A stretch of 64,000 nt of DNA from Magnetovibrio blakemorei (GTDB taxonomy: Bacteria > Pseudomonadota > Alphaproteobacteria > Rhodospirillales > Magnetovibrionaceae). Below, piece by piece: positions 5,353 to 18,616 of the stretch; position 1 is the first letter of the stretch; each line of letters starts with the position of its first letter. Where the stretch lies: the NCBI RefSeq assembly GCF_001746755.1, contig NZ_MCGG01000008.1:124001-188000 (forward strand), read 5' to 3'. The notes under the pieces were generated by a model that saw only the letters and a program-made list of their open reading frames with translations, made no database searches and was not told the origin of the DNA. Both the position numbers and the translations under genes were made by a program.

Positions 5353-6015
5353 TTAAGCGGAAGCGGAACGATTGTTCAGATAAGCGCTGATCAAGGACGA
5401 CAGCGCCAAGAAGGTCACGGTTGCCAACAACTGCCACATCAGCACCAGCGCCGTTGCGTCGGGGGCATGGAACAACCGCAAACCCACCGCGCCCAGCGCC
5501 GAAGCCGCCAATACGGACAGCGCCACCGTTTCGGTCGGTGACGTCAACATGCCGCGACGGATCAAAATCACCATCACCAAGGCCGGTGCCGCGCCCGTCG
5601 CCACGACGGAGGGATAACAGGTCCAATGCGGCGCAAACGAAAAATGCTCCGGGCCAACCTGTTCGAACAAACGAAAACAACTTTCGCCGATCAACGCCAG
5701 CCATGCCCCAAAGGGCAACACCGGCAACATCCAAGCGTGCTTGGCGCGCCCCGGTTGCGCCCCGCACAGCGCCGCATAACCGGCCGTCAGGGCAGTCAAC
5801 AAAATCGCTGCCAATTCCAGCAGCGAGCGCGCATTGGTGAGGCGCTCAAACGCCAACACCATGTTTTGCCGTTCGACCAACGCCCCCATCACCAAGGACA
5901 TCGGCAACGCCACGGCCATCCAGCCCGCAAGACGCCGCCCCGGTGACGCCAAGCGTTTCACCGGGGGCAAGTCCTGCGACAATGCGGCAATCAGGTTTTC
6001 GGTTGAGTTGTTCAT
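5353..6015 (-). CDS. nrsF: NrsF family (DUF1109) membrane anti-sigma factor
   Basis: 220 residues with six hydrophobic segments after a soluble N-terminal tail of about 28 residues that would face the cytoplasm. This is the NrsF (DUF1109) layout: a membrane protein that holds an ECF sigma factor inactive and releases it on metal or redox stress. Cysteines lie at residues 84, 113 and 133; conserved cysteines of NrsF in Caulobacter are required for sensing (family knowledge). Its ATG overlaps the stop of the sigma factor gene (ATGA), so the pair is translationally coupled, as expected for a sigma/anti-sigma unit. It is convergent with the TPR gene, whose stop is nine bases away. Confidence 0.88.
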   Translation of the reverse strand: MNNSTENLIAALSQDLPPVKRLASPGRRLAGWMAVALPMSLVMGALVERQNMVLAFERLTNARSLLELAAILLTALTAGYAALCGAQPGRAKHAWMLPVLPFGAWLALIGESCFRLFEQVGPEHFSFAPHWTCYPSVVATGAAPALVMVILIRRGMLTSPTETVALSVLAASALGAVGLRLFHAPDATALVLMWQLLATVTFLALSSLISAYLNNRSASA

Positions 6016-6611
6016 TTTCCTACCGCTCCGCCTTTGGGCCGCTCCACCTTGGGGGCCATTTCAACGCGAAGGTTTTTGAGCGCCCTGTGCATCGCCACCT
6101 TCAGCGCCGCCACGGACATGCCGCTGACCTCAGACGCTTGTTTAAGACTCATTTCGCGCAATTTCAACAATTCCACGGCTGTCTGCTGCCCTGCGGGCAG
6201 GGTTTTGAGCGCGCGGCTGAGAGCGTCTCCCGACGCGAACACAAGATCGTCCTCTAACGGCGTATTCGTTTCATCGGACAAAAAGGTTTCAGGATATTCG
6301 TCAACCAGAACTTCGTGAGCCCCTTGTCTGTACATTTTACGCAAAGCATCCATGGTGCGGCGTTCCGCAATGGTGCTGATCCACGGTCGAAACGGCAGCT
6401 TGGGATCGTAGGTATGACGGTTACGATGCAAGCTCAATAAGATGTCTTGAACGACATCTTCACCTTTATCGGGATCGTTAATGCGTTTTCCGACGATGGC
6501 GCGCAGCAACGGCAACACCGCCGCCAGCAAGCTTTGATAGGCGACAACGTCACCGTCTTGCGCCAGCGCCATCCACTCAGACCATTGGGCGTCGCGTGTC
6601 TCGTCTGCCAT
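6012..6611 (-). CDS. sigF: ECF sigma factor, SigF-like
   Basis: About 199 residues from the ATG at 6611, which has AGGA seven bases upstream; the frame also extends to a TTG at 6641 without a good ribosome site. Region 2 spans about residues 10-90 (DKGEDVVQDILLSLHRN, RPWISTIAERRTMDALRK). Region 4 spans about 135-190 (LPAGQQTAVELLKLREMSLK followed by a helix-turn-helix with VAALKVAMHRALKNLR). It sits directly before nrsF with an ATGA overlap and is divergent from the bufferin operon. That is the arrangement known for the Caulobacter SigF regulon, which responds to copper, gold, chromate and other thiol-reactive stress. The promoter-like motif between the two transcription units supports direct control. 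Confidence 0.9.
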   Translation of the reverse strand: MADETRDAQWSEWMALAQDGDVVAYQSLLAAVLPLLRAIVGKRINDPDKGEDVVQDILLSLHRNRHTYDPKLPFRPWISTIAERRTMDALRKMYRQGAHEVLVDEYPETFLSDETNTPLEDDLVFASGDALSRALKTLPAGQQTAVELLKLREMSLKQASEVSGMSVAALKVAMHRALKNLRVEMAPKVERPKGGAVGK

Positions 6612-6676
6612 TACATTCCTGACATGGGCGTTTTGGGTCAATGTAGGGTTTTACACTATTCATTCAAAAATAATTT

Positions 6677-6703
6677 GTAACCCATTGCATCACGGCATCG
6701 AAC
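6677..6703 (+). promoter_or_regulatory. SigF-type promoter of the bufferin operon
   Basis: GTAACC at 6677-6682 and CGAAC at 6699-6703 are separated by 16 bases. This matches, as I recall it, the -35 GTAACC and -10 CGAA elements reported for Caulobacter SigF promoters. It points toward bufA, about 95 bases upstream of its ATG, and lies next to the divergent sigF gene. The match is seen in the sequence; its use by this sigma factor is inferred. Confidence 0.7.
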
Positions 6704-6748
6704 TTGTAGGGGAAGGGACACGATACACCGTTCCTTGAAACCCAATCC

Positions 6749-6768
6749 AGACCCTTTTCGGGGTCTTT
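6749..6768 (+). promoter_or_regulatory. Leader hairpin upstream of bufA
   Basis: AGACCC (6749-6754) and GGGTCT (6761-6766) form a 6-bp stem with a 6-base loop followed by TTAT. It would lie inside the transcript leader, between the SigF-like promoter and the bufA ribosome site. It could act as a weak attenuator or stabiliser. The stem is short and may be chance. Confidence 0.35.
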
Positions 6769-6797
6769 ATCACGTCAATCTTATTTAGGAGAATTCC

Positions 6798-7058
6798 ATG
6801 TCTGTTAAATCTCTCGCTAAAGCCCCGCTTCTCGCCGCCGCCATGACCGTCGCCTTGTCGGCCGCCGCCATGCAAGACGTCAGCGCCGCTGATATGGAAA
6901 AATGCTACGGCATCGCCAAAGCAGGTCACAACGACTGCAAAACCGAAACGTCATCTTGCGCCGGGACCGCCAAAATGGATCACGAAGCAAGTGCTTTTGT
7001 CGCCGTTCCGGTTGGCACCTGCGCAAAAATTGCCGGTGGCACATTGAAACCTATGTAA
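6798..7058 (+). CDS. bufA1: Bufferin precursor BufA1 (DUF2282), exported metallophore RiPP
   Basis: 86 residues, with TTAGGAG before the ATG. Residues 1-30 are a Sec signal peptide ending DVSA, cleaved before ADMEKC. The mature part has four cysteines (36, 47, 54, 75) in the pattern EKCYGIAKAGHNDC, SSCAGTA and GTCAKIAGG that defines DUF2282. Family knowledge: bufferins are ribosomal peptides whose central cysteines are converted to thiooxazole rings by an MNIO enzyme, then exported to the periplasm to bind copper. The genes for the modifying enzyme, its partner and a DoxX protein follow directly, and the operon is divergent from sigF-nrsF. Having a Sec signal as leader is unusual for a RiPP but normal in this family. 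Modification and metal binding are inferred, not seen. Confidence 0.92.
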   Translation: MSVKSLAKAPLLAAAMTVALSAAAMQDVSAADMEKCYGIAKAGHNDCKTETSSCAGTAKMDHEASAFVAVPVGTCAKIAGGTLKPM

Positions 7059-7074
7059 GACCGGATTGCGCCAG

Positions 7075-7983
7075 ATGGACCAAATGGCTCCCACCGCGCA
7101 AAGTCTTGCCAGCCCGATTCCGTCAAGCCCGTTACCAAACCGGGCTGGGATCGGGCTCAAGGCGCAGCACTATCAAGAGATTCTCGACACCCAGCCAAAC
7201 ATCGGCTGGCTGGAAGTGCACAGCGAGAATTATATGTGCACGGGCGGACCAACGCTGAAGTGGCTGACGGCCTTGCGCGAACGCTACCCCGTTTCCCTGC
7301 ACGGTGTCGGGATGTCGCTGGGCAGCGCCGGACCTCTGGACCAAGCCCACATAAAGCGCCTGGTTGATTTGGACCGCCGCATTGAGCCCGGTTGGGTGTC
7401 CGAACATCTGTCGTGGAGCATTGCCGACGGCGTTTACTTAAATGACCTCATTGCCTTGCCTTACACCGCAGAAAGTCTCGACGTGTTTTCCGCCCACGTG
7501 CGCGAAATGCAAGATGCGCTGAACCGTCAGGTTCTGATCGAAAATCCATCTTCTTATTTGCGCTACGAACATTCCGTTATTTCTGAGCCCGAATTTTTAC
7601 TCAATGTCGTGAGCCAAAGCGGCTGCGGCGTGTTGCTGGATGTCAACAACGTCTACGTCAGCGCTCACAACCACGGCTTTGACCCCGTTGCCTATCTTGA
7701 CCAGATCCCGGCCCATCTGATCGGTGAGATTCATATGGCGGGTCATAGTCAAACGGTGATCGACGGGCGCACCATCCGCATCGACGATCACGGTTCCCCC
7801 ATTTGTGGTGAAGTGTGGGCCCTTTATGAACACTTGATTAAGCGCACTGGACCAAAGCCGACCTTGATTGAATGGGACACCAACATCCCTGCCCTAGACG
7901 TTTTGCTGGGCGAAGCCGCCAAGGCCGACGCCATTATGACCCTGTGCGGGCAAAGGGAGACTCACCGTGCTTGCATTGGCTGA
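7075..7983 (+). CDS. bufB1: MNIO family (DUF692) bufferin-modifying oxidase
   Basis: About 302 residues from the ATG at 7075; other in-frame starts are TTG 7066 and ATG 7084. It is a multinuclear non-heme iron oxidase of the MbnB-like TIM-barrel family. Visible motifs are IGWLEVHSENY, LHGVGMSLGS, SEHLSW, IENPSSYLRY, LLDVNNVYVSAHNHG, GEIHMAGH, DDHG and IEWDTN; their His, Asp and Glu residues are expected to hold two or three irons. The family oxidises cysteine side chains of a precursor peptide into heterocycles. Here the substrate should be BufA1, encoded 16 bases upstream. The end overlaps bufC by 17 bases, so translation is coupled. Confidence 0.92.
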   Translation: MDQMAPTAQSLASPIPSSPLPNRAGIGLKAQHYQEILDTQPNIGWLEVHSENYMCTGGPTLKWLTALRERYPVSLHGVGMSLGSAGPLDQAHIKRLVDLDRRIEPGWVSEHLSWSIADGVYLNDLIALPYTAESLDVFSAHVREMQDALNRQVLIENPSSYLRYEHSVISEPEFLLNVVSQSGCGVLLDVNNVYVSAHNHGFDPVAYLDQIPAHLIGEIHMAGHSQTVIDGRTIRIDDHGSPICGEVWALYEHLIKRTGPKPTLIEWDTNIPALDVLLGEAAKADAIMTLCGQRETHRACIG

Positions 7984-8737
7984 ATTACAAAGTTCGTTTG
8001 GCGAGGCATCGCTTGGCGGTGATACAATCACACTGGCACCCGCCATCATTGGTGATGGGTTGCAGGCGGAACAGCGCCTCAGTATCCACCGCAACAACAC
8101 CACCGTTTTGCTCTGTGAGGTTTTGGGCACCACGTATCCCGTGGTTAAAAAATTGGTTGGCGAAGCTTTTTTTGATTCTGTTGCGCGGGCGTATGTGCGT
8201 GCCCATCCGCCCCGCTCGCCGTGCCTGTTTGAATACGGGGGTCATTTTGGCGATTATCTTGCGAACGTTCCCGCCGTGGCCGAACTGCCCTATTTATCGG
8301 ACGTGGCCAAGTTGGAATGGGCCTGGAATGAAAGCTTTTATGCCGTTGACGCCGAACCGCTATCGGCCAGCGCACTGGCAAAGATTGACCCAGAAACCTA
8401 TGGCGATTTGATTTTCACCCTCCACCCGAGCCTGCGCCTTGTTGCGTCGGCGTACCCTATCAAAGAAATCTGGGACGTCAATCAATGCGGTGCCGATCCC
8501 GACGCCCGCGTGGATTTGAACGAAGGGGCGCAGCGCCTCGCCGTGCTGCGGGCCCAAACATCTGTAACCTTCATTGAGCTTTCTCGGGGTGGTTTTGAGA
8601 TGACGGCCCAGTTAAGTGCCGGCAAGCGGCTCGAAGACGCTTTTTTGTCCGGCCAGCGTCTCATGGCCGATTTTGATCCCACGGCGACCCTGTCAGTCCT
8701 TATCCGTGCAGGCGCGTTTCACACCTTTTTCATCTAG
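7967..8737 (+). CDS. bufC1: DUF2063 partner protein of the bufferin oxidase
   Basis: 256 residues from a GTG start with GGGAGA six bases upstream, overlapping the end of the DUF692 gene. The N-terminal half matches DUF2063 (RLSIHRNNTT, LGTTYPVVKKLVGEAFFDSV, FLEYGGHF-like FEYGGHFGDYL, VAKLEWAWNESF). The second half is a looser beta-rich region. In the MbnB/MbnC-type systems this subunit binds the precursor peptide and presents it to the oxidase. The strict order precursor, MNIO, DUF2063 supports the same role. No membrane segment or signal is seen, so modification should occur in the cytoplasm before export. Confidence 0.9.
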   Translation: MLALAELQSSFGEASLGGDTITLAPAIIGDGLQAEQRLSIHRNNTTVLLCEVLGTTYPVVKKLVGEAFFDSVARAYVRAHPPRSPCLFEYGGHFGDYLANVPAVAELPYLSDVAKLEWAWNESFYAVDAEPLSASALAKIDPETYGDLIFTLHPSLRLVASAYPIKEIWDVNQCGADPDARVDLNEGAQRLAVLRAQTSVTFIELSRGGFEMTAQLSAGKRLEDAFLSGQRLMADFDPTATLSVLIRAGAFHTFFI

Positions 8738-8746
8738 GAAAATCCC

Positions 8747-9211
8747 ATGTCTGTCCTGACTGAGCTTTATTATACAGTGGTCAAACACCTCACAAGCACC
8801 CCCGACGCCCTTTTGGCCTTGATGGCCCGCATCAGTATGGGTGCCTTTTTTATTCGTGCCGGACAAACCAAAGTTGACAGCGATTTCAACATCACAGACA
8901 CCACCGTGTACCTTTTTCGCGAAGAATATCAGGTCCCTTTGCTGTCGCCCGAAGTGGCGGCATACATGGCCACGATCACCGAGCACATGTTAGGGGCGTT
9001 GTTGATCGTTGGTCTCGCCACCCGGCTTTCGGCCCTTGGTCTGTTGGGGATGACGATCGTCATCGAAGTGTTTGTTTACCCCGCCAGTTGGCCCGATCAC
9101 CTGCTGTGGGCGACGGCCTTAATGCTGATTTTGGCGCGCGGGCCAGGGTGGTTGGCAGCCGATACATTGCTCTGCAAAGCCTTTGGAAAGTGCATTCCAA
9201 AAAGCTCTTAA
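8747..9211 (+). CDS. DoxX family membrane protein of the bufferin operon
   Basis: 154 residues with AGGAAA before the ATG, nine bases after bufC. It has four hydrophobic segments and a DoxX-type first helix (LMARISMGAFFIRAGQTKV) plus MLGALLIVGLATRLSALGLL. DoxX proteins commonly close bufferin operons. Their exact role is unclear; redox balance, quinone contact or help in copper handling have been suggested for relatives. The operon appears to end here, because only intergenic sequence and a bidirectional hairpin follow. Confidence 0.85.
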   Translation: MSVLTELYYTVVKHLTSTPDALLALMARISMGAFFIRAGQTKVDSDFNITDTTVYLFREEYQVPLLSPEVAAYMATITEHMLGALLIVGLATRLSALGLLGMTIVIEVFVYPASWPDHLLWATALMLILARGPGWLAADTLLCKAFGKCIPKSS

Positions 9212-9300: not shown

Positions 9301-9377
9301 TGGTGCACCCTGAGCGATTCGAACGCCCGACCTTCTGATTCGTAGTCAGATGCTCTATCCAGCTGAGCTAAGGGTGC
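9301..9377 (-). tRNA. tRNA-Arg (anticodon ACG)
   Basis: 77 bases with CCA encoded. The acceptor arm is GCACCCT/AGGGTGC, the D arm GCTC/GAGC, the anticodon arm TCTGA/TCAGA around loop CTACGAA, and the T arm GGGCG/CGCTC with TTCGAAT loop. Anticodon ACG, read after A34-to-I editing, serves CGU, CGC and CGA arginine codons. Confidence 0.97.
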
Positions 9378-9702: not shown

Positions 9703-10869
9703 ATGCGCGAAATGGATTTTTCGAAGTACCGGGCAATAATTGTAGCAACCGCACTCTTCCTGCCGGCTTGCTCTTTTTCAGAATCTGCTCTGTGGCCATC
9801 GTTGACTGGTGAAGACCCTGCGGCGGATTCCCCGTCCTCGGCGCTACCGGCATCGGCGAGCTCAACCAATCAAACAGCTGTTGATGGGGGCATTGCCACG
9901 CAACCGCCGCAGCTTGGCACAACGGATTTCAAGCCCGTAGGCGTAACGCCGGGCCAAGATACCGGGACATTCGTAGGCCGCAAGGTCGCCGAATTGCGCT
10001 CTGAGCTACAGCGTCTGCAAGATCAGGTCAGCACCCACAATAGTCAGTTGCAAACGCAGCGCGCCGAAATGGTCGCCAACGCACAGAACTATCACGGTCT
10101 GGTTGCTTCCATAAATTCTCGTCTTCAAGTGGGAACCACACCGGGCAACCCCATTTTGGTGCAGCAATTCAATTCCGCTCAAACGTCGTTGGATAACTTG
10201 AATGTCGGCATTGCTTCGATGAACAAGCTGGCGACTTCGGTTTCAGGCATGTCCACCATGTCCTCTTATCTGGCCGAATCGACCCGCGCCGCCTTTGGCG
10301 TGTCGGGCGCAGTGGACGAAGATCACCGCCAACTGACGATTTTGGAAGATGAAGTCGATCAAACGGTGGTTTTGATTGAGCGTCTGCTCACGGAAACCAC
10401 CGAAGACATTCGCCGCCAAAGCAGTTATGTCGCCTCGGAACGGTCAAATTTGAACACCGTGGCCGCAGGCATCAAAACGGGTGAAATTTACGGCGCAAGC
10501 CTCAACAATGTCGCTCAAAGCGCATCGGGTCCCGGCCCGGTCGCCGGCAAACCGATGGATACGACCGGACGTCGCCCGTTGGTGGTGATTCGCTTTGATC
10601 GCGACAAAGTGCCGTACCAACAAGCCCTCTACAATGCGGTGGGCAAAGTTTTGGAACGTCGCCCCAATGCCTCTTTCGATCTGGTGGCCGTCGCGCCCAC
10701 ATCCGGCGGACCGGCGCGCGTGGCTTTGAATTCCACCAAAGCACGTCGTCAAGCCGAAGAAGTCTTGCGCTCGTTGGTTGAGATGGGCCTACCCCCCGCA
10801 CGTGTTGCGGTTTCCGGCAAGACCATCGCCAGCGCACTCACCAATGAAGTGCATCTTTATTTGCGCTGA
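9703..10869 (+). CDS. Lipoprotein with coiled coil and OmpA-like C-terminal domain
   Basis: 388 residues. The signal peptide ends in the lipobox FLPAC (C23), so the mature protein should be lipidated. Residues about 25-85 are Ser/Pro/Thr-rich. About 90-130 form a coiled coil (VAELRSELQRLQDQVSTHNS), and the central region is helical. The last 110 residues (VVIRFDRDKVPYQQALYNAV, then STKARRQAEEVLRSLVEMGL and ARVAVSGKT) resemble an OmpA/MotB-type peptidoglycan-binding fold, though the classical motif is divergent. It may link outer membrane and cell wall. ATG 9712 is an alternative start. It is followed by a strong terminator and looks monocistronic. Confidence 0.7.
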   Translation: MREMDFSKYRAIIVATALFLPACSFSESALWPSLTGEDPAADSPSSALPASASSTNQTAVDGGIATQPPQLGTTDFKPVGVTPGQDTGTFVGRKVAELRSELQRLQDQVSTHNSQLQTQRAEMVANAQNYHGLVASINSRLQVGTTPGNPILVQQFNSAQTSLDNLNVGIASMNKLATSVSGMSTMSSYLAESTRAAFGVSGAVDEDHRQLTILEDEVDQTVVLIERLLTETTEDIRRQSSYVASERSNLNTVAAGIKTGEIYGASLNNVAQSASGPGPVAGKPMDTTGRRPLVVIRFDRDKVPYQQALYNAVGKVLERRPNASFDLVAVAPTSGGPARVALNSTKARRQAEEVLRSLVEMGLPPARVAVSGKTIASALTNEVHLYLR

Positions 10870-17911: not shown

Positions 17912-18616
17912 TCACTTCCATTTTTGATACAAAATCGGCAGCAAGGAGAGAGTCGCCAACGCCAAAATGGGCAGGAGAATTTCCGGCTGGAATATGATCC
18001 CCAAATCGGGTTCTGCGCCACTTTCAAACACCGCCCCCAGCCCCGCGCCCACATGGGCATAAACAAACGTACCGGGAATGATGCCAATCAAGGTGGCAGT
18101 CACATAGGTGCTCAACTTTACATTCAACAGGGCTGGAACCAAATTCACCAACCAGAACGGAAACAACGGCACCAAGCGCAACACCAACAGATACTGAAAG
18201 GCGTTTTGGCGAAAGCCTTTTTCCATCTTGGCCACCCCCGCCCCGGCACGGCCCCGCAAAACATCGCCAAAGGCCGTGCGCGCCGCCAAAAAAATCAAGG
18301 TGGCGCCAATGGTCGCGCCAAATACGACATAAATCCCCGCCAGCACACCGCCGAACACAAACCCACCCGCCAACGTCAACCACACCCCACCGGGCAGCGA
18401 CAACCCCACAACGACGATATAGGTCGCGACAAAGACCATCACGGATGCAACACCATGTTCGCTGGCAAAGGCCAGCAAATCGGCACGGTGGTGGGAAAGG
18501 GCGGTAAAACTTAAATAGCGGTTGGCCCCTGATGCAAAAAAAACACCCATACCCACCACCACCAATAAAAGGGGGAGGAAACGTTTAACATCGACTTTGG
18601 TCTTGTCTTCTGTCAT
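17912..18616 (-). CDS. TVP38/TMEM64 family membrane protein
   Basis: 234 residues with about six hydrophobic segments. The DedA-superfamily core is plain: VVGLSLPGGVWLTLAGGFVFGG, GATIGATLIFLAARTAFGD, FQYLLVLRLVPLFPFWLVNL and IGIIPGTFVYAHVGAGLG. Family members may act as lipid scramblases or in cation homeostasis; the cellular role in bacteria is not settled. The gene stands alone, 135 bases from the DUF4405 gene and divergent from rpmH. Confidence 0.9.
   Translation of the reverse strand: MTEDKTKVDVKRFLPLLLVVVGMGVFFASGANRYLSFTALSHHRADLLAFASEHGVASVMVFVATYIVVVGLSLPGGVWLTLAGGFVFGGVLAGIYVVFGATIGATLIFLAARTAFGDVLRGRAGAGVAKMEKGFRQNAFQYLLVLRLVPLFPFWLVNLVPALLNVKLSTYVTATLIGIIPGTFVYAHVGAGLGAVFESGAEPDLGIIFQPEILLPILALATLSLLPILYQKWK

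Follow-up and report, generated by a model that had tools for sequence, protein, structure and literature searches.

The 64,000-nucleotide stretch of Magnetovibrio blakemorei DNA analyzed here (contig NZ_MCGG01000008.1, positions 124,001 to 188,000; hereafter the window) carries a canonical and complete Buf1 bufferin cluster together with an ECF16 SigF/NrsF switch, that is, a sigma factor and its membrane anti-sigma factor. Six intact reading frames make up the cluster, nrsF-sigF on the minus strand being divergent from bufA-bufB-bufC-doxX on the plus strand (Table 1). An earlier note on this DNA had proposed such a pair beside a Buf1-type operon, and the family matches bear it out; however, the range it gave for the complete locus, 6012–9211, leaves outside the nrsF gene that its own text counted. 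Its description of the genes as overlapping holds for nrsF/sigF (4 nucleotides, nt) and bufB/bufC (17 nt), whereas bufA and bufB are separated by 7 nt, and bufC and doxX by 9 nt. The order of the operon, in which the MNIO gene is followed by that of the DUF2063 partner and then by doxX, is that of Buf1, and NrsF belongs to its family both by its PF06532 match and by the position of its gene, which adjoins that of an ECF sigma factor.

The translation of bufA confirms the four cysteines previously listed (C36, C47, C54, and C75), and by inspection its residues 1 to about 30 resemble a Sec signal peptide, with a basic start, a hydrophobic core, and A-x-A before residue 31. Against the NCBIfam BufA2 model, which has a cut-off of 60, the protein reaches only 29.3 bits, as would be expected of a Buf1 (DUF2282) precursor, and none of the solved structures searched matched it. 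The architecture itself has already been described: Buf1 clusters have the same DUF2282 precursor, MNIO, DUF2063 partner, and DoxX in the bufABC order, with sigma and NrsF genes that are reported in Buf1 and not in Buf2 clusters, and the gene set found here does not differ from it (PMC12452194). The comparison with Caulobacter crescentus proposed in the note gives the same layout in CC3252–CC3257, with the sigma factor beside NrsF, a DUF2282-DUF692-DUF2063-DoxX operon, and the same promoter consensus; there, CC3254–CC3257 depend on SigF, and NrsF is the negative regulator (PMC3511200). Caulobacter nevertheless has two SigF-dependent operons (PMC3511200), whereas the M. blakemorei genome contains a single DUF2282 gene and a single MNIO gene, both of them at the bufferin locus. 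In itself the locus is one well-supported addition to a recently named class of copper peptides; of more consequence are the two clades of NrsF and the species in which the switch is shared.

Table 1. Features of the bufferin locus and of related stretches; positions are those of the stretch named.
Feature	Stretch	Position	Strand	Description
nrsF	window	5353–6015	-	six-helix membrane anti-sigma factor; PF06532 59.4 bits (cut-off 26.8); C84, C113, C133, H183
sigF	window	6012–6641	-	ECF sigma factor; TTG start, in-frame ATG at 6611; Sigma70_r2 48.7 bits, Sigma70_r4_2 38.2 bits
SigF box of bufA	window	6677–6702	+	GTAACC 6677–6682, 16-nt spacer, CGAA 6699–6702; exact match
bufA	window	6798–7058	+	Buf1 bufferin precursor, 86 aa; DUF2282 82.8 bits (cut-off 22.4)
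bufB	window	7066 (TTG) or 7075 (ATG) to 7983	+	MNIO maturase; PF05114 346.6 bits; NF050167 MNIO_BufB 382.8 (cut-off 310)
bufC	window	7967–8737	+	DUF2063 partner protein; PF09836 84 bits (cut-off 27.2); HvfC equivalog 46.5, below cut-off 142
doxX	window	8747–9211	+	DoxX-family membrane protein; PF07681 67.7 bits (cut-off 23.6); HvfX 42.7, below cut-off 80
tRNA-Arg	window	9301–9377		past doxX
VTT-domain gene	window	17912–18616	-	about 11 kb from bufA
NPC operon	L382	8606–10798		perfect SigF box
NPC operon	L383	6602–8763		perfect SigF box
NPC operon	L384	2642–4808		perfect SigF box
NPC operon	L385	6128–8211		perfect SigF box
NPC operon	L059	1812–3450		perfect SigF box; genome G001
Neighbors of NPC operon	L384	527–2616		DUF302 protein, sulfur transporter (PF04143), small protein
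Molybdopterin oxidoreductase gene	L386	3084–3857		own genome, contig C7; PF00174
Radical SAM gene	L065	3845–4886		own genome, contig C8
nrsF with W113 and C183	L048	244–927		nested in C113/H183 clade
Two additional NrsF-family genes	L051	6208–7625		genome G036

An exact GTAACC-N16-CGAA, the promoter of the ECF16 SigF regulon and the consensus of SigF in Caulobacter (PMC3511200), lies 95 nt upstream of bufA. As a bare match it is weak, since with spacers of 15–17 nt, 0.34 matches are expected in the window and 30 of 100 shuffles contain at least one; the claim is carried instead by two other observations: (i) conservation, as TGTAACC and CGAA do not vary when the regions flanking sigF are aligned across the six genomes of the genus, while the flanks diverge, the box being followed by bufA in five of them and by a different operon in the sixth (G001); (ii) and linkage, as among 207 fetched stretches GTAAC-N16-18-CGAA precedes bufA in 35 of the 44 cases with nrsF in the locus versus 1 of the 77 without it, the reversed pattern occurring 0 and 2 times, respectively. 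This linkage is the strongest evidence in the analysis that SigF would drive the buf operon, and with it the matching promoter claimed by the note holds good. That the locus could be decayed or silent is, in turn, hardly credible: no feature of the sequence speaks in its favor, while all six frames are intact and the gene order and promoter are kept in four congeneric genomes (G002–G005).

Three observations weigh against control by SigF and NrsF as in the characterized relatives. Within the genome of M. blakemorei, GTAACC-N16-CGAA is found 3 times versus 10 for the reversed pattern; upstream of sigF no SigF box was found with up to two mismatches (6591–6850, minus strand), for which reason autoregulation of sigF was rejected, whereas the sigF of Caulobacter does have a SigF-type promoter (PMC3511200); and the NrsF of the window lacks an equivalent of the second cysteine, C181 or C179, of those relatives. 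The longer TGTAACC-N16-CGAA has a single exact match in the 3.64 Mb of the genome, at bufA, the reversed control also having one, and with one mismatch allowed there are 37 matches versus 63. A regulon called from the motif alone was rejected, because the matches are no commoner than those of the reversed control and are unusable without conservation.

The gene set with its order and families, and the promoter with its conservation and with the link to nrsF, are read directly from the DNA; how the signal would be sensed, SigF released, and the peptide modified, exported, and loaded with copper we infer from the literature on relatives, and we consider it likely that the cluster is run by the ECF16 SigF/NrsF pair and works by the copper-peptide mechanism proposed here. 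In the resting state, NrsF in the membrane would keep SigF bound, until periplasmic copper, or some other metal or oxidant that attacks thiols, altered NrsF through cysteines near the periplasmic face, these being C113 and C133, with H183 occupying the usual place of the sensing cysteine; in other words, C113 would substitute for the missing C181/C179. The released SigF would then transcribe bufABC-doxX from the GTAACC-N16-CGAA box, and BufB and BufC would convert the central cysteines of BufA, C47 and C54, into thiooxazoles, the central cysteines of Buf1 being those reported as modified (PMC12452194). The peptide would be exported by Sec, its outer cysteines, C36 and C75, would form a disulfide, and in the periplasm it would chelate copper.

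The signal for this response need not be a metal, as the note had supposed, given that the characterized relatives respond to chromate and cadmium (PMC3511200), H2O2 (PMC3420878), or HOCl (PMC8315932). It could well be, although this is somewhat short of probable, that what is sensed is the attack of oxidants on thiols of the periplasm, as by HOCl, H2O2, or disulfide stress, with copper as one trigger of several and bufferin one part of a general thiol-stress response. The response of OsrA in Bradyrhizobium takes place via C179, and its sigma factor also controls a thioredoxin of the periplasm together with a DsbD-like protein (PMC3420878); the Brucella AbcS/BcrS system is the one that answers to HOCl (PMC8315932); and GTAAC-N16-18-CGAA is found upstream of thioredoxin/CcdA genes in 13 of 18 fetched loci that also hold nrsF. 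In M. blakemorei itself, a GTAACC-N16-CGAA match stands 19 nt ahead of a gene for a molybdopterin oxidoreductase, and CC2748, a SigF target in Caulobacter, is of the same family (PMC3511200); but the motif being rarer in this genome than its reversed control, this box may be due to chance. That the metal of bufferin is gold, chromium, cadmium, or mercury, with copper binding only incidental, seems improbable: chromium and cadmium stress were used in the study of Caulobacter SigF (PMC3511200), and bufferin domains fused to MerC occur in mercury-related clusters (PMC12452194), but copper chelation is what has been described for bufferins and related thiooxazole peptides (PMC12452194, PMC13097082).

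The sensing proposed for copper brings us to the cysteines of NrsF. The EcfF-OsrA pair of Bradyrhizobium (PMC3420878) and the BcrS-AbcS pair of Brucella (PMC8315932) likewise consist of an ECF16 sigma factor and a six-helix anti-sigma factor of the NrsF family with an invariant cysteine, and have a similar promoter consensus, although their targets include methionine sulfoxide reductase genes (PMC3420878, PMC8315932), whereas here it is the bufferin operon that adjoins. In the homologues gathered here (137 locus hits, minus 2 below 60 bits and 3 shorter than 150 residues), C133, in window numbering, is universal (132 of 132); its counterparts are C131 in Caulobacter (PMC3511200) and C129 in Bradyrhizobium, the latter possibly needed for sigma binding (PMC3420878). 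The second cysteine, 50 residues further on, was shown to be necessary for the stress response in Bradyrhizobium (C179; PMC3420878), has its counterpart in C181 of Caulobacter (PMC3511200), and forms the C129/C179 pair of the Brucella anti-sigma factor (PMC8315932); it corresponds to position 183 of the window protein, as mapped by that spacing and by relatives rather than by aligning the named Caulobacter, Bradyrhizobium, and Brucella sequences, and this position is occupied by histidine, with a cysteine at 113. Of the three potentially sensing cysteines of the note, C133 is the invariant one, C113 is the mark of another clade, and C84 is variable among homologues, while the position known to sense stress is His183.

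The 132 proteins divide into 55 that have C113 without C183, 67 with C183 without C113, 1 with both, and 9 with neither; in a second alignment, 68 carry C183 but lack C113, 54 combine C113 with H183, and 10 fit neither description. On a tree of 112 sequences, one side holds 61, of which 60 are of the C183 type and one has both cysteines, and the other holds 51, comprising all 40 with C113/C133/H183, that of the window included, 9 others, and 2 of the C183 type, one of which (L248) has a long branch and an unsure placement. From its sequence, then, the NrsF of the window is a member of an old C113/C133/H183 clade, and NrsF proteins fall into two old clades with the second cysteine at different positions, such that the sensing model with two cysteines, worked out in Caulobacter, Bradyrhizobium, and Brucella, might apply to just one of the two. 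The co-occurrence of C113 and C183 in only one of the 132 is due mostly to this single ancient split. The other C183-type protein on that side of the tree (L048) is nested in the C113/H183 clade and pairs W113 with C183, so that its second cysteine seems to have been swapped back, while some H183 proteins (L050, L298, L249–L251) have lost C113 without gaining C183. With one old split and one swap, a coupled evolution of the two positions is suggested only; as a claim it was set aside, because the sign test, with one or two informative pairs, was not significant and the reciprocal swap is unique to L048.

Both types of NrsF are found in loci with BufB (19 sequences of the C113 type and 26 of the C183 type), and thus either would be able to serve a bufferin operon. 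That sigF-nrsF and buf have been inherited as one unit was rejected, as on the BufB tree the nrsF label would have to change 18 times, and supported branches force no fewer than 6 of these changes; this was a quick tree that kept 111 of 135 sequences after 24 from Pseudomonas were dropped. Genome G036 has a complete buf operon with a sigF-nrsF pair of its own and, close by, two additional NrsF-family genes (L051). In the AlphaFold2 model of the window NrsF (mean pLDDT 92.3), C113 lies in the helix 99–120, C133 opens the helix 133–153, and H183 falls in the turn between helices 160–182 and 185–219, and from the published topology of relatives all three should face the periplasmic side; a fold search gave no PDB match at E <= 0.001.

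The different operon that follows the box in G001 extends the question to the whole family, in which TGTAACC-N16-CGAA has 29 exact matches in 10 of 12 genomes, versus 18 for the reversed pattern over all 12. Five of these boxes precede bufA (G000, G002, G003, G004, and G005), and another five precede one conserved operon (G001, G008, G010, G012, and G014) that encodes proteins with NPC repeats and DUF6969, and upstream of which TGTAACCAAA and CGAA are invariant in all five genomes; no bufferin genes were detected in these five, which have an orthologous sigF-nrsF. Twelve more stand before genes seen again in two or three genomes (radical SAM 3, MASE10-HD 3, DUF1223 2, VTT 2, and symporter 2), a grouping made visually from the N-terminal residues and backed by a single Pfam check for each group, and the genes of the last seven do not recur. 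A radical SAM gene of M. blakemorei is also preceded by GTAACC-N16-CGAA (L065), and its look-alikes in G003, G004, and G014 have exact boxes. As for VTT, the family genes of G002 and G005 have exact boxes, and that of the window has only one with two mismatches and a spacer of 15, a degenerate form for which it is not claimed as a SigF target.

The conserved operon contains (i) a peptide of about 100–115 residues with NPCAAK-type repeats and a start resembling a signal peptide, which is not present in G001; (ii) a protein that combines NPC repeats with a SoxA/TsdA-like cytochrome c domain (PF21342), as checked in G001 and G014; (iii) and DUF6969 (PF22308), present in all five genomes. In G001, which belongs to the genus of the window, it is divergent from sigF-nrsF and occupies the position that bufA has in its congeners. 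In the sister genus g4 (G008, G010, G012, and G014), the orthologous sigF-nrsF is found at the same site, with relatives, recognized by eye, of the window TPR genes beyond nrsF, and in G010 sigF is directly followed by a tRNA-Arg and a relative of the window gene at 9703, with no intervening buf operon. All 4 of the nrsF-bearing genomes reached by a search for NPC repeats (G001, G008, G010, and G012) have a GTAACC box near the repeats, versus 0 of 10 without an nrsF match, 3 of the latter (G033, G042, and G054) having a weaker GTAAC match; this control covered 1.5 kb on each side, sometimes cut at contig ends, in up to three stretches per genome, and its repeat pattern missed G014. There is, then, good support in these sequences for a promoter shared by the bufferin and NPC operons.

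Bufferin and DUF6969 tend to exclude one another: among 60 relatives an MNIO gene is found in 19 and DUF6969 in 21, with both in only one (G043), a distribution with Fisher p values, uncorrected for phylogeny, of 0.001 by genome, 0.03 by family, and 0.04 by genus. No DUF6969 match was found in the five genomes of the family with sigF-nrsF and buf, which are 95–100% complete, and no MNIO match in the five with sigF-nrsF and DUF6969, the absence being provisional in four of these, which are 59–86% complete, versus 99% for G008. G016, another member of the sister genus with a completeness of 66%, gave no match to NrsF, MNIO, or DUF6969, and in G006 buf is present while NrsF is absent from the matches.

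Of 23 DUF6969 loci, 17 have NPC repeats no more than 1.5 kb away from the gene, and an alignment of 15 of the 23 shows a conserved, histidine-rich DUF6969 segment, H-x-H-R-x-GEHGHFH, with a short insert in some sequences, which suggests a metal site. Foldseek found no fold for DUF6969, nor did VIA-align, which re-ranks the Foldseek list only, give any at Z >= 5, for a model with a mean pLDDT of 78.5; no mention of DUF6969 or NPCAAK was found in the literature searched. From all this, the SigF/NrsF switch seems to carry interchangeable thiol cargoes, an interchange beneath one SigF/NrsF pair that the available text of the Buf1 survey does not mention (PMC12452194). We would tentatively go further and propose that the cargo is an exported one, rich in cysteine, in which the NPC operon replaces bufferin, the NPC repeats buffer copper or absorb oxidants in the periplasm, and DUF6969, as a metalloenzyme, acts on the NPC proteins to modify or serve them, as MNIO does for bufferin. 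If so, the NPC operon should answer to the same signal and the same stress as bufferin, and a switch that serves either of them according to the species would offer a direct route to the job of the cysteine-repeat/DUF6969 system.

Upstream of the NPC operon, the genomes of the sister genus also have in common three proteins, one of the DUF302 family, one a sulfur transporter (PF04143), and one small and with no family assigned (L384, with counterparts in L382, L383, and L385), which are alike by eye in the four genomes, the families having been checked in L384 and the small protein in L383.

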